In this document: piece after piece, positions 12,919 through 25,449 of the stretch | Numbering within the stretch: the stretch's first letter is position 1 | Layout: every line of letters begins with the position of its first letter | From: Actinomycetota bacterium | Lineage (GTDB): Bacteria > Actinomycetota > Thermoleophilia > Gaiellales > Gaiellaceae | Direction: 5' to 3' | DNA length: 35,879 nucleotides | Assembly (NCBI GenBank): GCA_004366385.1 | Contig: SIRU01000050.1 | Span: forward strand, 1-35,879 | Program-made: the position numbers and the translations under genes | The notes under the pieces: model-generated | The model's database searches: none | Told to the model about the DNA's origin: nothing | Seen by the model: the letters and a program-made list of their open reading frames with translations, nothing else

Positions 12919-13380
12919 ATGCGCCGTACCGCTCTCGCGCTCGCGCTGCTCGCCCTCGCGGTCGCCTTCGCGGCCGGCTGCGGCGGCGAGGAGGAGGTGT
13001 CGCCGACGCCCGACGCGGTGGTCGGGACGCTGCCCACGGAGACCGAGCCCACGGAGACGGAGCCGACCGAGACGACCGCCACCGAGACCGAGCCGACGGA
13101 GACCGAGCCGACCGAGACCGAGCCTCCGGACGAAGGCGACCCCGTCGCCGGGAGGCAGGTGTTCCTCGGCCCCTCCGGCTGCGGGAACTGCCACGTGCTC
13201 GCCGATGCGGGCACCACCGGCACGGTCGGCCCGAACCTCGACGAGACGCAGCCGAGCTACGAGCTCGCGCTCGACCGCGTCACGAACGGCCGCGGTGGGA
13301 TGCCGTCGTTCTCGGCTTCGCTCTCCGAGCAGCAGATCGCCGACGTCTCCGCGTACGTCGCGGAAGCCGCGGGCGGCTGA
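12919..13380 (+). CDS. Lipoprotein mono-haem cytochrome c
   Basis: A 153-residue exported electron carrier. Residues 1-21 are a lipoprotein signal ending AFAAGC (lipid-bearing Cys21). A linker of TETEP repeats (about 39-69) follows, then a class I cytochrome c domain with haem site CGNCH (Cys88, Cys91, His92) and the axial Met in GGMPSF (Met128). The end EQQIADVSAYVAEAAG is the conserved last helix. It is probably tethered to the outer face of the membrane. No oxidase or dehydrogenase gene is next to it, so the partner is unknown. Confidence 0.88.
   Translation: MRRTALALALLALAVAFAAGCGGEEEVSPTPDAVVGTLPTETEPTETEPTETTATETEPTETEPTETEPPDEGDPVAGRQVFLGPSGCGNCHVLADAGTTGTVGPNLDETQPSYELALDRVTNGRGGMPSFSASLSEQQIADVSAYVAEAAGG
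13036..13125 (+). repeat. TETEP-coding 15-bp repeats
   Basis: The linker of the cytochrome gene is made of imperfect ACGGAGACCGAGCCG units coding TETEP. One unit is altered to TETTA. Unit number could vary between strains without frameshift. Confidence 0.7.
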
Positions 13381-13452
13381 GTCCACTTCGCCGACTCCCG
13401 GCCGGCGGCACGCCAGAACGATTACCGCGCGCTGCGACGATTTCGGCACGAA

Positions 13453-13525
13453 GTCGTCACCCACCCGTGAGCGTGTCCTCGATATCGTTCGTGTAGGGAC
13501 ACGGGAGTGCCCCTGGGGGTGCTTG
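13453..13525 (+). repeat. Dispersed 73-nt repeat, copy 2
   Basis: Plus-strand partner of 8540-8610. It contains CCCGTGAGCG, the fully conserved TTCGTGTAGGGACACGGGAG and a terminal hairpin formed by GTGCCCC and GGGGTGC with two wobble pairs. It ends about 36 bp before the serS start. Inside it TAGGGA is followed after 7 nt by GTG 13507, which is in frame with serS; the same -10-like/GTG pair exists in copy 1. Confidence 0.75.
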
Positions 13526-13547
13526 GGGTTCGATGGGAGCGACTGCC

Positions 13548-13553
13548 TAGACT
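13548..13553 (+). promoter_or_regulatory. -10 box of serS
   Basis: TAGACT ends 7 nt before GTG 13561, where the conserved SerRS amino end begins. Confidence 0.5.
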
Positions 13554-13560
13554 CTCCGGC

Positions 13561-14796
13561 GTGATCGACCTCAGGGCCGCCCGCGCCGAGCCTGACGCCG
13601 TCCGCTCCGCCCTCGCCCGCAAGGGCGACGAAGCCGCGCGCCTCTTCGACGAGCTGCTCGCGGCCGACGAGCGCTGGCGCGGGCTGATACCGCAAGTCGA
13701 CGAGCTGCGCGGCCGCACGAAGCTCAAGGGCAAGCCGACGCCGGCCGAGCTCGAGGAGCTGAAGGGGGTGAAGGTCGACCTCAAGCGGCTCGAGGACGAG
13801 CTCGCCGAAGCGGAGGCGGCGCGGAAGTCGCTGCTCGACCGCGTGCCGAACCCGCCCGACGACACGGCGCCGGACGGCTTCGCGGAGGAGGACGCGGTCG
13901 AGATCCGCCGGGTCGGCGAGCCGCCCTCGTTCTCCTTCCCCGTGCGCGACCACGTCGACCTCGCCGCCGAGCACGGCTGGATCGACCTCGAGCGCGGCGC
14001 GCGTGTGTCCGGCTCGCGGTTCGTGTACCGGATCGGCGACGTCGCCCTGCTCGAGCTCGCGCTCTACCGCTTCGCGCTCGACCGCCTCGCCGGCAAGGGA
14101 TTCACACCGGTGCTTCCCCCCGTGCTCGTGCGCGAGGAGGCGATGTACGGCACCGGCTTCTTCCCCACCGACGAGGTGAACATCTACGGCGTCGAGCGCG
14201 ACGGGCTGTACCTCGTCGGCACCTCCGAGGTCTCGCTCGCGGCTCTGCACACGGGCGAGATCCTCGGCGGGCTCCCGCTCCGCTACGCCGGCTACTCGGT
14301 CTGCTTCCGCCGCGAGGCGGGCGCCGCGGGCAAGGACACACGAGGGATGTTCCGCGTGCACCAGTTCGACAAGGTGGAGATGTTCGTGTTCACGACCCCG
14401 CCGGAGTCGCGCGACGAGCACGACCGGCTGCTCGCGATCGAGGAGGAGCTCGTGCAGGAGCTCGGGATCCCCTACCGCGTCGTGAACGTCGCCGCCGGCG
14501 ACCTCGGCGCCTCGGCCGTGAAGAAGTACGACATCGAGGCGTGGTTCCCCGGGCAGGAGCGCTGGCGCGAGATCACGTCGACGTCGAACACGACCGACTT
14601 CCAGGCGCGCCGGCTCGAGATCCGCCACCGCCTCGAGGACGGCTCGCTCCAGCCGGTCCACACGCTGAACGGGACGGCGGTCACGGCCCGCGCGCTGATC
14701 GCACTGATGGAGAACTTCCAGGACGAGGGCGGCGCGATCGCCGTCCCGGCGCCGCTCGTCGAGCTGGGCGCCCCCAAGCGCCTCGGCGGCGAGTAG
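13561..14796 (+). CDS. serS: Serine--tRNA ligase
   Basis: Class II aminoacyl-tRNA synthetase, 411 residues, the usual bacterial size. The amino end VIDLRAARAEPDAVRSALAR opens the coiled-coil arm (about 30-100) that grips the long variable arm of tRNA-Ser. The catalytic domain shows motif 2 (CFRREAGAAGKDTRGMFRVH) and motif 3 (NGTAVTARALIALMEN). The frame stays open to GTG 13507, but family comparison and TAGACT 7 nt upstream favour GTG 13561. A tRNA-Ser(TGA) gene follows 428 bp downstream, and two further tRNA-Ser genes lie 10 kb away. Confidence 0.96.
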   Translation: MIDLRAARAEPDAVRSALARKGDEAARLFDELLAADERWRGLIPQVDELRGRTKLKGKPTPAELEELKGVKVDLKRLEDELAEAEAARKSLLDRVPNPPDDTAPDGFAEEDAVEIRRVGEPPSFSFPVRDHVDLAAEHGWIDLERGARVSGSRFVYRIGDVALLELALYRFALDRLAGKGFTPVLPPVLVREEAMYGTGFFPTDEVNIYGVERDGLYLVGTSEVSLAALHTGEILGGLPLRYAGYSVCFRREAGAAGKDTRGMFRVHQFDKVEMFVFTTPPESRDEHDRLLAIEEELVQELGIPYRVVNVAAGDLGASAVKKYDIEAWFPGQERWREITSTSNTTDFQARRLEIRHRLEDGSLQPVHTLNGTAVTARALIALMENFQDEGGAIAVPAPLVELGAPKRLGGE

Positions 14797-14864
14797 CTGG
14801 CGCGTGCACGCGAGCGGCAGGGATGTGTCGCGCGCGGCGACACGTGGACGACAGGCGTCACGGC

Positions 14865-14870
14865 TACCCT
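14865..14870 (+). promoter_or_regulatory. -10 box of the PD-(D/E)XK gene
   Basis: TACCCT ends 6 nt before GTG 14877, with no Shine-Dalgarno sequence. Confidence 0.5.
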
Positions 14871-14876
14871 CTTCAC

Positions 14877-15248
14877 GTGCGCGCCACCCAGCGCAAGGGG
14901 GACATCGCCACGTCCCGAGCGATCGCCACCTTCACGGCGGTGGGATACGACGTCTCGATCCCGCTGACCGAGTCGGCCGCATACGACCTCGTTGTCGAGG
15001 ACGAGAAACGGCTGTTCCGCGTCCAGTGCAAGTTCGCCACCGACAAGCGACGCCAGGTCGACCTTCGAAGGACCCACTCGAACTCGACTGGCTACGTCGT
15101 CAAGCGCAGCACCGAGGACTCCTACGATTGGTTGTACGTGCTCGACGGGTCGAGCTCGGAGTTCTCGACAGAGGCGTGCTTGGTGGGCCGACGGTCGGTG
15201 ACGCTACGAGACGACTACAAGCTTGGAGCGGTGGCAGAGTCTGGCTGA
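14877..15248 (+). CDS. Small PD-(D/E)XK nuclease-like protein overlapping tRNA-Ser
   Basis: A 123-residue protein resembling the group I intron-associated PD-(D/E)XK endonucleases (the I-Ssp6803I type). It has QRKGDIATSRAIATFTAVGYDV, then ESAAYDLVV with Asp37, and RVQCKFA with Gln50 and Lys52, which together give the D-(x)n-QxK catalytic core. The middle YVVKRSTEDSYDWLYVLD and the end are also family-like. The start GTG 14877 has TACCCT 6 nt before it. The stop TGA lies inside the tRNA-Ser gene: the last 24 nt overlap the tRNA acceptor and D arm. No intron interrupts the tRNA. The activity and its target are inferred, not shown. Confidence 0.75.
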   Translation: MRATQRKGDIATSRAIATFTAVGYDVSIPLTESAAYDLVVEDEKRLFRVQCKFATDKRRQVDLRRTHSNSTGYVVKRSTEDSYDWLYVLDGSSSEFSTEACLVGRRSVTLRDDYKLGAVAESG

Positions 15249-15314
15249 ATGCAGCTGCCTTGAAAGCAGCCGGCCCGCCCGTCGGGCCCGGGGGTTCGAA
15301 TCCCTCCCGCTCCG
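15225..15314 (+). tRNA. tRNA-Ser(TGA)
   Basis: Acceptor arms GGAGCGG (15225-15231) and CCGCTCC (15307-15313) pair fully, with discriminator G. The anticodon stem GCTGC/GCAGC encloses loop CTTGAAA, anticodon TGA at 15261-15263. A long variable arm (CCGGCCCGCCCGTCGGGCC region) and GGGGGTTCGAATCCCTC-like T arm are typical of tRNA-Ser. CCA is not encoded. Its 5' part overlaps the nuclease gene. Confidence 0.95.
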
Positions 15315-15451
15315 TCCGCCCGATGTATCCGACCGAAGCGCGCGGAAGCGACAGCCGCTGCCGCGATGCCCGAGTCCTTCGGACGGCGCAGTGCTGTCCT
15401 CTGTCTGGAGCCCGGGCGGATCCTCTGTCTACCCACCCCGGTAGGGTGGCC

Positions 15452-15937
15452 GTGCCTCTCGCGATGGTCGATCCCGAGCACGTCCGCGCTCTCCTCAGCC
15501 GCCACCCGTCGGGCGTCTGCGTGGTCACGGTCGCCGCGGGCGAACAGAAGCTCGGCCTGACGATCGGGTCGCTCGTCTCCCTCTCCCTCGACCCGCCGCT
15601 CGTGGGGTTCGCCGTCTCGCGCGAGGCCGCGATGCACGAGCTCCTGCGCGAGGCGGGCGGGTGCGCGATCTCGCTCCTCGCGGCGGGGCAGGAGTGGCTC
15701 GCGCAGCACTTCGCGCGGGGTGTCCCGCCGATTGCGATGTGGCACAAGGTCGGGATGGAGCCCGGATCCAACGGCGCCCCGCTGCTCGTGGGTGCGCTCG
15801 GGTGGCTCGAGGCGACCCTGCAGCACGAGGTCGCGACGGGGACGCACACGTTCTTCGTCTGCGAGGTGCGGCGGGTCGAGCTCGGCGAGAACGCGCCGGC
15901 GCTCGTCCGGGTGCGCGGCGAGTACACGAGCGTGTGA
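15452..15937 (+). CDS. Flavin reductase-like, FMN-binding protein
   Basis: A 161-residue protein of the flavin reductase/HpaC-like split-barrel family. Visible are FPSGVCVVTV-like HPSGVCVVTV, the FMN-binding GLTIGSLVSLSLDPPLVGFAV, the middle GGCAISLLAAGQEWLAQHFA, and the end HTFFVCEVRRVE. Such proteins reduce flavin with NAD(P)H or act as the reductase of two-component monooxygenases. GTG 15452 has TAGGGT only 4 nt away; ATG 15464 is an alternative. The HAD gene overlaps its stop by 4 bp, so the two are co-translated. A longer paralogue lies at 26040-26828. Confidence 0.87.
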   Translation: MPLAMVDPEHVRALLSRHPSGVCVVTVAAGEQKLGLTIGSLVSLSLDPPLVGFAVSREAAMHELLREAGGCAISLLAAGQEWLAQHFARGVPPIAMWHKVGMEPGSNGAPLLVGALGWLEATLQHEVATGTHTFFVCEVRRVELGENAPALVRVRGEYTSV

Positions 15938-16596
15938 GCAACATCGAGGCGGTCGTCTTCGACCTCGACGGCGTGCTCGTGGACTCGGAGCACGTGTGGG
16001 ACGAGGTGCGCGAGACACTGGCCCGCGAGCGCGGCGGCCGCTGGCACGAGCGCGCGCAGGCGGACATGATGGGGATGAGCTCGACCGAGTGGTCGCGGTA
16101 CATGCACGACGTCATCGGGCTCGCAGAGCCACCGGAGGCGATCGACGCCGAGGTCGTGCGGCGGATGGAGATGCGGTACGCGGAGTCGCTGCCGCTCGTG
16201 GAGGGAGCAGTCGAGGCCGTGCGGCGGATTGCCGGCTCGTTCCGGCTCGCGCTCGCCTCGTCGTCGAACCGGCCGCTCATCGACCTCGTGCTGGAGCTCT
16301 CGGGGTTGGCGCAGCTCTTCGAGGCGACGGTGTCCTCGGAGGAGGTGGCGCACGGGAAGCCTGCGCCGGACGTCTTCCTCGAAGCGGCCCGTCGGCTCGG
16401 CGTCGAGCCCGCTGCGTCCGCGGCGGTCGAGGACTCGGGGAACGGGATCCGGTCGGCGCACGCAGCGGGCATGCGCGTCGTCGCGATCCCCAACCGGCGC
16501 TACCCGCCCACGCCGGACGCCCTCGCTCTCGCCGACGTCGTCCTCGCGTCGATCGTCCTCCTCACGCCCGCGGCCGTCACGCCGCCGCACGAGTAG
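15934..16596 (+). CDS. HAD-superfamily phosphatase (beta-phosphoglucomutase-like)
   Basis: A 220-residue HAD hydrolase. Motif I is FDLDGVLVDSEHVW (nucleophile Asp10, Asp12), motif II LALASSSNRP, motif III Lys in AHGKPAPDVFLEA, and motif IV AVEDSGNGIRSAHAAGMRVV. The helical cap after motif I puts it in subfamily I with phosphoglycolate phosphatase and beta-phosphoglucomutase. Substrate not determinable. The GTG start lies within the GTGTGA that ends the flavin reductase gene (4-bp overlap). Confidence 0.9.
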   Translation: MSNIEAVVFDLDGVLVDSEHVWDEVRETLARERGGRWHERAQADMMGMSSTEWSRYMHDVIGLAEPPEAIDAEVVRRMEMRYAESLPLVEGAVEAVRRIAGSFRLALASSSNRPLIDLVLELSGLAQLFEATVSSEEVAHGKPAPDVFLEAARRLGVEPAASAAVEDSGNGIRSAHAAGMRVVAIPNRRYPPTPDALALADVVLASIVLLTPAAVTPPHE

Positions 16597-16636
16597 CGCC
16601 GCCGGCACGGCCGCAAGCGACGCCGAGACGCTCCTT

Positions 16637-16651
16637 GTGGCTCTGAGCCAC
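16637..16651. repeat. GTGGCTC palindrome, copy 1
   Basis: GTGGCTC-T-GAGCCAC, a perfect 7-bp inverted repeat with one central base, flanked by CCTT and GAGC. It lies 41 bp after the HAD gene. Confidence 0.8.
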
Positions 16652-16723
16652 GAGCTCTCCGGACGGCGGCAGCGCCGCACGCTCCCAGCGCGGTCGTGGG
16701 ACGGAAGGGCGGACTCAGACCTC

Positions 16724-16738
16724 GTGGCTCTGAGCCAC
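16724..16738. repeat. GTGGCTC palindrome, copy 2
   Basis: GTGGCTC-T-GAGCCAC, with longer arms GACCT and AGGTC outside one mismatched pair, giving a 27-bp inverted repeat. Confidence 0.8.
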
Positions 16739-16824
16739 AAGGTCGTCGCAGCGCTGCCTGAGTCACGCACAGGGGTGCTTGCCGGCTCGTACATGGCCTG
16801 TACTCCGAACGATGAGCCGGGGGC

Positions 16825-17136
16825 TCACGACCGGCGGCGTCGCTCAGCGGCGAGCGTGGAGTCTCGCAGCTGCAGTGCGACCCGCTCGGGGCGGGGCGCG
16901 CGGCCCCTCGCCAGGTCCGAGGCGAGGTCGCCCGCGATCTCCCTCAACTCGCGGCGTCGGGCGCGCTCGGCGCGGATCAAGCGCCGGAGATGCACGTAGC
17001 TCGGCCGTGGGAGGCCGAGCCGGTCTGCGACCTCACCGACCTTGCGACACGTCTCGGCCATCGGGAGCCGTTCATCGTCGAGGCGTCGTGCTGCAGCGAC
17101 GAGCCGCGGGTCGTAGCGCGGGGCCGAGCGGGGCAT
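16825..17136 (-). CDS. Small helix-turn-helix protein
   Basis: A 103-residue, strongly basic protein. The central part MAETCRKVGEVADRLGLPRP followed by SYVHLRRLIRAERARRRE looks like a helix-turn-helix (skip, 'xGLPRPSY' turn). Similar small HTH proteins are known from Thermoleophilia-type genomes; function not established. ATG 17136 is favoured over GTG 17139 because GACACT lies exactly 6 nt upstream and GGAG is also close. Copies 1 and 2 of the GTGGCTC palindrome lie beyond its 3' end and copy 3 lies 115 bp before its start, so it may be related to those sites. Confidence 0.65.
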   Translation of the reverse strand: MPRSAPRYDPRLVAAARRLDDERLPMAETCRKVGEVADRLGLPRPSYVHLRRLIRAERARRRELREIAGDLASDLARGRAPRPERVALQLRDSTLAAERRRRS

Positions 17137-24998: not shown

Positions 24999-25039
24999 CC
25001 GGCCGCCTTCAGGTCCGTTGCCTCTCGCGCACAACGAGG

Positions 25040-25130
25040 CGGAGAAGGAGGGATTCGAACCCTCGAGGCAGGGATTACCCCACCTAACGCCTTAGCAGGG
25101 CGCCGCCTTCAGCCACTCGGCCACTTCTCC
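25040..25130 (-). tRNA. tRNA-Ser(GCT)
   Basis: On the minus strand the acceptor begins GGAGAAG and ends CTTCTCC. The anticodon stem GCGCC/GGCGT encloses loop CTGCTAA with anticodon GCT (plus 25094-25096). A long variable arm and T loop TTCGAAT are present, as in tRNA-Ser. CCA is not encoded. Confidence 0.95.
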
Positions 25131-25208
25131 GCGCGCCTCCGAGGATATCGGACGCCCCTGCTCGCCTCGCGAGCGTCGCCCCCGTGACCCGGCTACCCTT
25201 ACCCGCTC

Positions 25209-25295
25209 GGAGGGGTGCCGGAGCGGTCGAACGGGGCGGTCTCGAAAACCGTTAGACGTGCAAGCGTCTCGAGGGTTCAAATCCCTCCCCCTCCG
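25209..25295 (+). tRNA. tRNA-Ser(CGA)
   Basis: Acceptor arms GGAGGGG and CCCCTCC pair, with discriminator G. Anticodon stem GCGGT/ACCGT, loop CTCGAAA, anticodon CGA at 25243-25245. The long variable arm TTAGACGTGCAAGCGTCTC and the T arm GAGGG/CCCTC with TTCAAAT fit tRNA-Ser. No CCA in the DNA. Confidence 0.95.
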
Positions 25296-25449
25296 CTCGA
25301 ACGTGGCACTCGATTGCTCCGCTGGGCACGGGCGGCTCGCGAGTGTGGAGCGACGGCGCACCCGCAGGAACGCGCGAACACTCGGTCGGCGGCACGCGCC
25401 GGCCGCGGCAGCGCTCGGGACGAGCGGTGCCGCGGCCAGAGCACTCGTG

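Follow-up and report, generated by a model that had tools for sequence, protein, structure and literature searches.

Most homing endonucleases, according to a review, can reside within strongly conserved genes thanks to self-splicing introns (PMC3943268). Homing endonucleases as such, intronless homing, the fold of the PF11645 family and tRNA-linked phage nucleases, e.g. SegB, are likewise already known. The nearest relative with a solved structure of the nuclease reported here is I-Ssp6803I, from the group I intron of a cyanobacterial tRNA-fMet gene. Titles and abstract openings, in a search that covers few subscription journals and leaves absence unproven, include none on PF11645 proteins as tRNA-flanking or tRNA-replacing elements.

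The window (the whole stretch of 35,879 nt analysed here) exhibits a small nuclease gene that runs into a tRNA-Ser(UGA) gene (Table 1). An earlier note on this DNA, made from the sequence alone, had placed the stop codon inside the tRNA; ARAGORN and Rfam agree, putting it 24-25 nt into the tRNA gene. The upstream ORF is presumably a seryl-tRNA synthetase (serS-like), a name that accords with its synteny with tRNA-Ser. No match to the group I intron model (RF00028) was found in window positions 13000-17000 and no intron remnant at the locus, as the earlier note had also read it. Its claim of a leaderless start is plausible only, because the TANNNT box, which might serve as the -10 element if the transcript is leaderless, fits by eye and a sigma-70 scan detected nothing at this box. 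Elsewhere in the window (25038-25296), tRNA-Ser(gct) and tRNA-Ser(cga) lie divergently, 78 nt apart.

Table 1. Coordinates of the nuclease-tRNA locus and its flanks in the window
Feature	Position	Strand	Remarks
serS-like ORF, upstream flank	13507..14796	+	adjoins tRNA-Ser in nuclease-free relatives
TANNNT box TACCCT	14865..14870	+	by eye; six bases 5' of GTG
PF11645 PD-(D/E)XK nuclease gene	14877..15248	+	123 aa; GTG start; TGA stop within tRNA gene
Block common to window and G073	15172..15314	+	88.3% identity over 145 columns
tRNA-Ser(UGA) gene	15225..15314	+	Rfam 52.8 bits; ARAGORN 15224-15317
tRNA anticodon arm GCTGC-CTTGAAA-GCAGC	15254..15270	+	differs from nuclease-free relatives
Downstream flank	15554..16328	+	homologous to G031 (L045)

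The nuclease family and the kinship with I-Ssp6803I proposed in the earlier note are borne out. The protein matches PF11645 (PDDEXK_5) with an E-value of 3.5 × 10-19 (69.6 bits, against a Pfam gathering cut-off of 26.1), and this is its sole Pfam match at E-values up to 1, a GIY-YIG or Hjc domain not being among them. I-Ssp6803I (PDB 2ost) is its only PDB sequence match at E ≤ 1 (E-value = 1.3 × 10-5). It is also the top structural match (Z 14.2, rmsd 2.9, 120 residues aligned) of an AlphaFold model with a mean pLDDT of 89.3, ranking over the archaeal resolvase Hjc (1gef), which comes second with Z 10.6. The catalytic Asp, Gln and Lys, whose loss the earlier note had named as a point against activity, are conserved: D37 and Q50 do not vary among 37 members, and K52 is kept in at least 90% of them. 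The active site of I-Ssp6803I also has a Glu on helix 1. This column holds Thr in the window protein and Glu in the intron-borne relatives L151-L153, and the Glu is not kept in the Ser-type nucleases; as it varies family-wide, the column was not used to exclude the window protein from PF11645. The GC content of the gene is 64.0% compared with 71.9% for the window; 0.6% of equal-length windows reach so low a value, which suits a foreign gene. The earlier note had left a choice between a relic and a new tRNA-targeted homing element; a relic is rejected for the window copy, with its intact ORF and conserved core, and a homing element is largely supported by the results that follow. The pN/pS medians (Ala-type 0.47, Thr-type 0.45, Patescibacteria Ser-type 0.34; window gene outside the test) are weak support, because synonymous sites are near saturation.

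Relatives of the gene are found beside tRNA genes. In the same order we identified 37 matches across 34 of 129 genomes, window included, and all 37 loci were read: 23 are at Ala-GGC, 10 at Thr-UGU and two at Ser-UGA, so that 35 adjoin a tRNA, and the remaining two end at contig edges. This agrees with the suggestion in the earlier note that the tRNA is the natural site, and its opposite case, relatives at unrelated sites away from tRNA genes, was not what the loci exhibited. A tRNA lies within 100 nt in 34 of the 37, against about 1% expected for a random gene (our own arithmetic from 47 tRNA matches in 2.73 Mb), and chance adjacency is rejected for chromosomes. Ala-type genes are located 5' of the tRNA and share its strand, and all 10 Thr-type genes start beyond the far side of the preceding tRNA. 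Among 73 relatives of the type with a downstream tRNA, 40 overlap it; at 14 loci (e.g. L003, L012, L030, L072, L148) the stop codon TAG coincides with tRNA positions 8-10, a conserved tRNA stretch.

In the wider phylum, PF11645 matches occur in 30 of 346 genomes at E ≤ 0.001, 25 of them over the cut-off. We read 32 loci there; one of them (L075) is the window again, and the four remaining match rows are second pieces of genes that these loci cover. The distance to a tRNA is at most 100 nt at 26 loci, 202 nt at one and 358-398 nt at two. L088, L090 and L091 have no adjoining tRNA and were not recovered in a homologue search; L090 and L091 fall under the curated Pfam cut-off, as do L087, L089 and L092 among the 26 with a close tRNA. 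Additional isoacceptors in this set are Arg-UCU, Tyr-GUA, Thr-CGU, Ala-UGC, Pro-GGG and Leu-UAA. The two genes at 358-398 nt (L085, L086) have tRNA-Pro(ggg) as that neighbour, and the L162 gene (genome G247) departs from the usual layout in that it overlaps a tRNA-Ala(tgc) of opposite orientation.

The comparison of relatives with and without the gene, proposed in the earlier note, covered the serS locus. A serS-like protein was searched in 30 genomes; it is present in 26, and in 21 a tRNA-Ser(tga) lies within the fetched stretch. Wherever the serS-tRNA-Ser locus of a nuclease-free relative could be read (20 of 20), it carries a GGCGGGG-type tRNA-Ser differing from that of the window. At the 21st locus, in genome G073, the tRNA resembles that of the window, and the nuclease gene beside it is reduced to its last 30 codons. 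The block shared by the two spans the 3' end of the nuclease gene to the exact 3' end of the tRNA, and the serS identity is 73%. Genome G031 provides the empty site: its native tRNA-Ser stands without nuclease between two flanks that are each homologous to those of the window, which argues for an in-place exchange of the native gene for the window unit. Occupied and empty alleles are found at one conserved site in this case (window and G031) and again at tRNA-Ala (G051 and G000, below). Among the 47 tRNA matches of the window genome, which is 97% complete, ARAGORN recognises a single tRNA-Ser(UGA), the nuclease-linked one. By eye, its D arm resembles those of the nuclease-linked tRNAs at L031 and L033; the search for a donor of the window tRNA-Ser found none. 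From these alignments, the window tRNA-Ser itself is a replacement, which appears to travel together with the nuclease gene, a point missed in the earlier note.

The Ala-type loci exhibit a clean insertion. Genome G051 carries the gene and can be aligned with the window genome G000, which is of the same genus and lacks it at this site, to either side of tRNA-Ala(GGC) (-1922..-481 with -1475..-34; 0..1269 with 0..1283). G051 thereby has about 447 additional nt flush against the tRNA start. A mostly deleted Ala-type copy is seen in the comparison of G019 with G020. The anticodon arms of this isoacceptor are highly variable: 23 distinct arms in 43 genomes for Ala-GGC, against three in 16 for Ala-UGC and one in 13 for Ala-CGC (one CGC and one UGC row with a weak 'remnant' label, E near 10-3, being taken as noise). 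Subsampling Ala-GGC to 16 gives a mean of 10.9 arms, and the 15 genomes in which both GGC and UGC were read have nine arms against three. The loop core TGGCA is kept in 42 of the 43 Ala-GGC genomes, and the stems change with pairing kept. The commonest ('native') Ala-GGC arm is found in 10 of 14 gene-free genomes versus three of 29 with the gene or a remnant (Fisher p = 10-4); with shuffling inside the genus the association is weaker (p = 0.045). The other arms in the four remaining nuclease-free genomes, where no remnant was detected, may be scars. As a control, 17 PF11645-negative genomes from other families in the class gave 6/11 arms for GGC, 4/8 for UGC and 5/10 for CGC, i.e. no GGC excess without the gene (one GGC row, G383, turned out to hold a gene remnant). 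Three arm strings in this control were cut at wrong positions, and the number of distinct arms is unaffected by them. Thr-UGU exhibits 22 arms in 31 genomes (hand count) versus two in nine for Thr-CGU, and its arms are equally variable with and without the nuclease gene.

The closest relatives of the window protein come from distant taxa. A scan of GTDB genome contigs returned five loci with 53-60% identity, in records titled Berkelbacteria, Saccharibacteria, Paceibacterota, Patescibacteria and, in one case, 'Bacterium'. All five adjoin tRNA-Ser, four with tRNA-Ser(tga) downstream; L032 has a divergent tRNA-Ser(tga) upstream and tRNA-Ser(gct) downstream. In the phylum of G471, matches occur in 13 of 379 genomes. 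Five loci are at Ser-UGA (L142 being the same place as L033), two at Tyr and two at Thr-UGU, each overlapping the tRNA or at most 11 nt from it; L154 has no tRNA, but the contig ends after only 281 nt. Three further genes (L151-L153) lie inside a group I intron. In these intron-borne cousins, from the Patescibacteria side, the RF00028 intron splits a tRNA-fMet-like gene at the anticodon loop, which is the I-Ssp6803I arrangement outside cyanobacteria. ARAGORN labels the tRNA gene of L153 as Leu, and the halves look alike. An intron at the anticodon loop of a tRNA-fMet-like gene accords with the title of Bonocora and Shub 2001.

GenBank phages gave 61 matching records, and 17 loci, picked among the 60 matches listed to cover distinct phages, were read. 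A tRNA lies within 196 nt in all 17. As tRNA arrays are dense in phages, adjacency is weaker evidence there, and it is the close gaps (at most 30 nt) or overlaps in 15 of 17 that count instead. The gene of Arthrobacter phage Talia1610 (63% identity over 90 residues to the window protein) ends within tRNA-Ser(tga) in a tRNA array, the same layout as in the window. Two tRNA-Ser(tga) are annotated at this phage locus (L166; 1773-1841 and 3363-3447), the second overlapping the nuclease gene. Haloarchaeal viruses carry relatives too. The layout is thus seen repeatedly, with more than one tRNA species, in bacteria, in phages and in viruses of archaea, a recurrence that the earlier note had also missed. 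A plasmid search gave no match to the nuclease, and no relative was found in IMG/VR viral contigs.

We built a tree of about 86 proteins, window included; decayed, partial and duplicate rows (19 names; <100 aa or without tRNA) were left out before changes of tRNA label were counted. The window protein groups with that of phage Talia1610 (support 86), within a clade (support 98) of 11 rows, 10 of them Ser-UGA and one (L032) Ser-GCU. The tRNA labels require 20 changes on the tree versus 51.6 for shuffles; support for the deeper branching is modest, with values below 80 at 42 of the 83 internal branches. The patchy distribution (34 of 129 genomes), the decay to remnants and the presence of relatives in distant taxa are as expected of a free-standing homing endonuclease.

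We consider it likely, from comparison of sequences, that the window gene encodes a free-standing homing endonuclease whose target is a tRNA gene of the host, and that it moves jointly with a substitute tRNA resistant to the enzyme ('home-and-rescue'). The case for this reading is made up of the family and fold, the position next to tRNAs, the empty sites, the exchange of the tRNA in place, the remnant and the varied arms; cleavage, target position, repair route, self-resistance and phages as the vector are what we infer from them. The nuclease, probably an oligomer as I-Ssp6803I is, would first cut the resident gene for a single tRNA isoacceptor, tRNA-Ser(UGA) in the window. The site would most likely be the near-palindromic anticodon arm, which is suggested by the intron-borne cousins at the anticodon loop; the arm of the window tRNA would then be the counterpart of the putative cleavage site. 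Donor DNA, from a phage or a relative, in which the nuclease gene lies flush against its own tRNA copy would repair the break. The nuclease gene and a tRNA with a different anticodon arm would thereby take the place of the resident gene, and this tRNA would remain uncut and maintain decoding. A gene adjoining its site leaves the site unsplit, so that another form of immunity is needed; a recoded linked tRNA would both give immunity and keep the cell alive. Afterwards the nuclease would decay, leaving the foreign tRNA as a scar. Three of the 26 intact Ala-type genes adjoin the commonest arm, which points to other specificities or to a target elsewhere in the tRNA.

An unlikely reading, though the best of the rivals, is ordinary intronless homing into the tRNA flank, in which tRNA variation reflects passive co-conversion and has no rescue role. 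Co-conversion of flanking markers is reported as usual in homing (PMC3984707), and with the unit flush against it the tRNA would be carried along. However, the arms of the targeted isoacceptors diversify far beyond the untargeted ones of the same genomes, as passive co-conversion from close relatives would not make them do, and a gene beside its uninterrupted site requires some self-resistance. The varied arms could also, though this is quite improbable, be an escape from anticodon nucleases, other tRNA-targeting defences or toxins, with the nuclease spreading resistant tRNAs as counter-defence cargo. SegB, a tRNA-linked phage homing endonuclease, is reported to amplify tRNA-Tyr genes in T6 against the Septu defence (PMC13096335), and the phage homologues of the present gene sit in tRNA arrays; yet SegB is a GIY-YIG and not a PD-(D/E)XK nuclease, and a constant TGGCA loop core with stems varying under pairing fits recoding of a DNA site better than escape from a loop cutter. 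A host housekeeping resolvase or repair nuclease, beside tRNAs by happenstance, is very improbable: Hjc is the second structural match and two phage records name the protein a Holliday junction resolvase, but the 2ost match is clearly better and the gene is patchy, decays to remnants and tracks tRNA identity on the tree.

The home-and-rescue reading may extend to the family, a generalisation that we regard as evenly poised. PF11645 clades, largely devoted to one isoacceptor each, would form a widespread natural class that replaces tRNAs cut in the anticodon arm with recoded ones, with repeated rounds making the targeted arms hypervariable and leaving the untargeted ones constant. Phages would shuttle the units between phyla, and the intron-borne I-Ssp6803I would represent one branch of this free-standing family. 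To carry along a functional stand-in for the target gene is an apparent alternative to the intron solution. If this holds, it would be a natural counterpart to engineered rescue drives and would explain the abrupt foreign replacement and hypervariable arms of certain tRNA genes. It would also open to testing how intron-borne tRNA endonucleases arose, and offer small nucleases of one family whose many specificities could be inferred.

Compared with known systems, the window nuclease shares with I-Ssp6803I the PF11645 family, the fold, the Asp/Gln/Lys core and tRNA genes as hosts. It differs in being free-standing, intronless and flush by an uninterrupted tRNA that is replaced, and family-wide in the many isoacceptors. 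With Hjc it shares the PD-(D/E)XK fold, in a weaker match than with 2ost, and context and distribution differ. The engineered drives HomeR and ClvR carry a recoded rescue copy. As in the unit proposed here, a cutter of an essential gene is linked to an uncuttable copy (PMC7968924, PMC7951863); those were engineered in insects, whereas the present unit is deduced from natural prokaryotic sequences. SegB of phages T4/T6 is likewise free-standing and tRNA-linked, and cuts inside tRNA sequences (PMC13096335). It belongs to the GIY-YIG superfamily and, in that report, is found in phages only, with no preferred isotype and no chromosomal tRNA replaced. Collaborative homing of the F-CphI type resembles our case in its intronless mobility and its free-standing gene near a target possibly shared with an intron (PMC3984707). 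In contrast to F-CphI and intronless homing, the target here would be an essential tRNA gene, of which the unit brings its own working copy.
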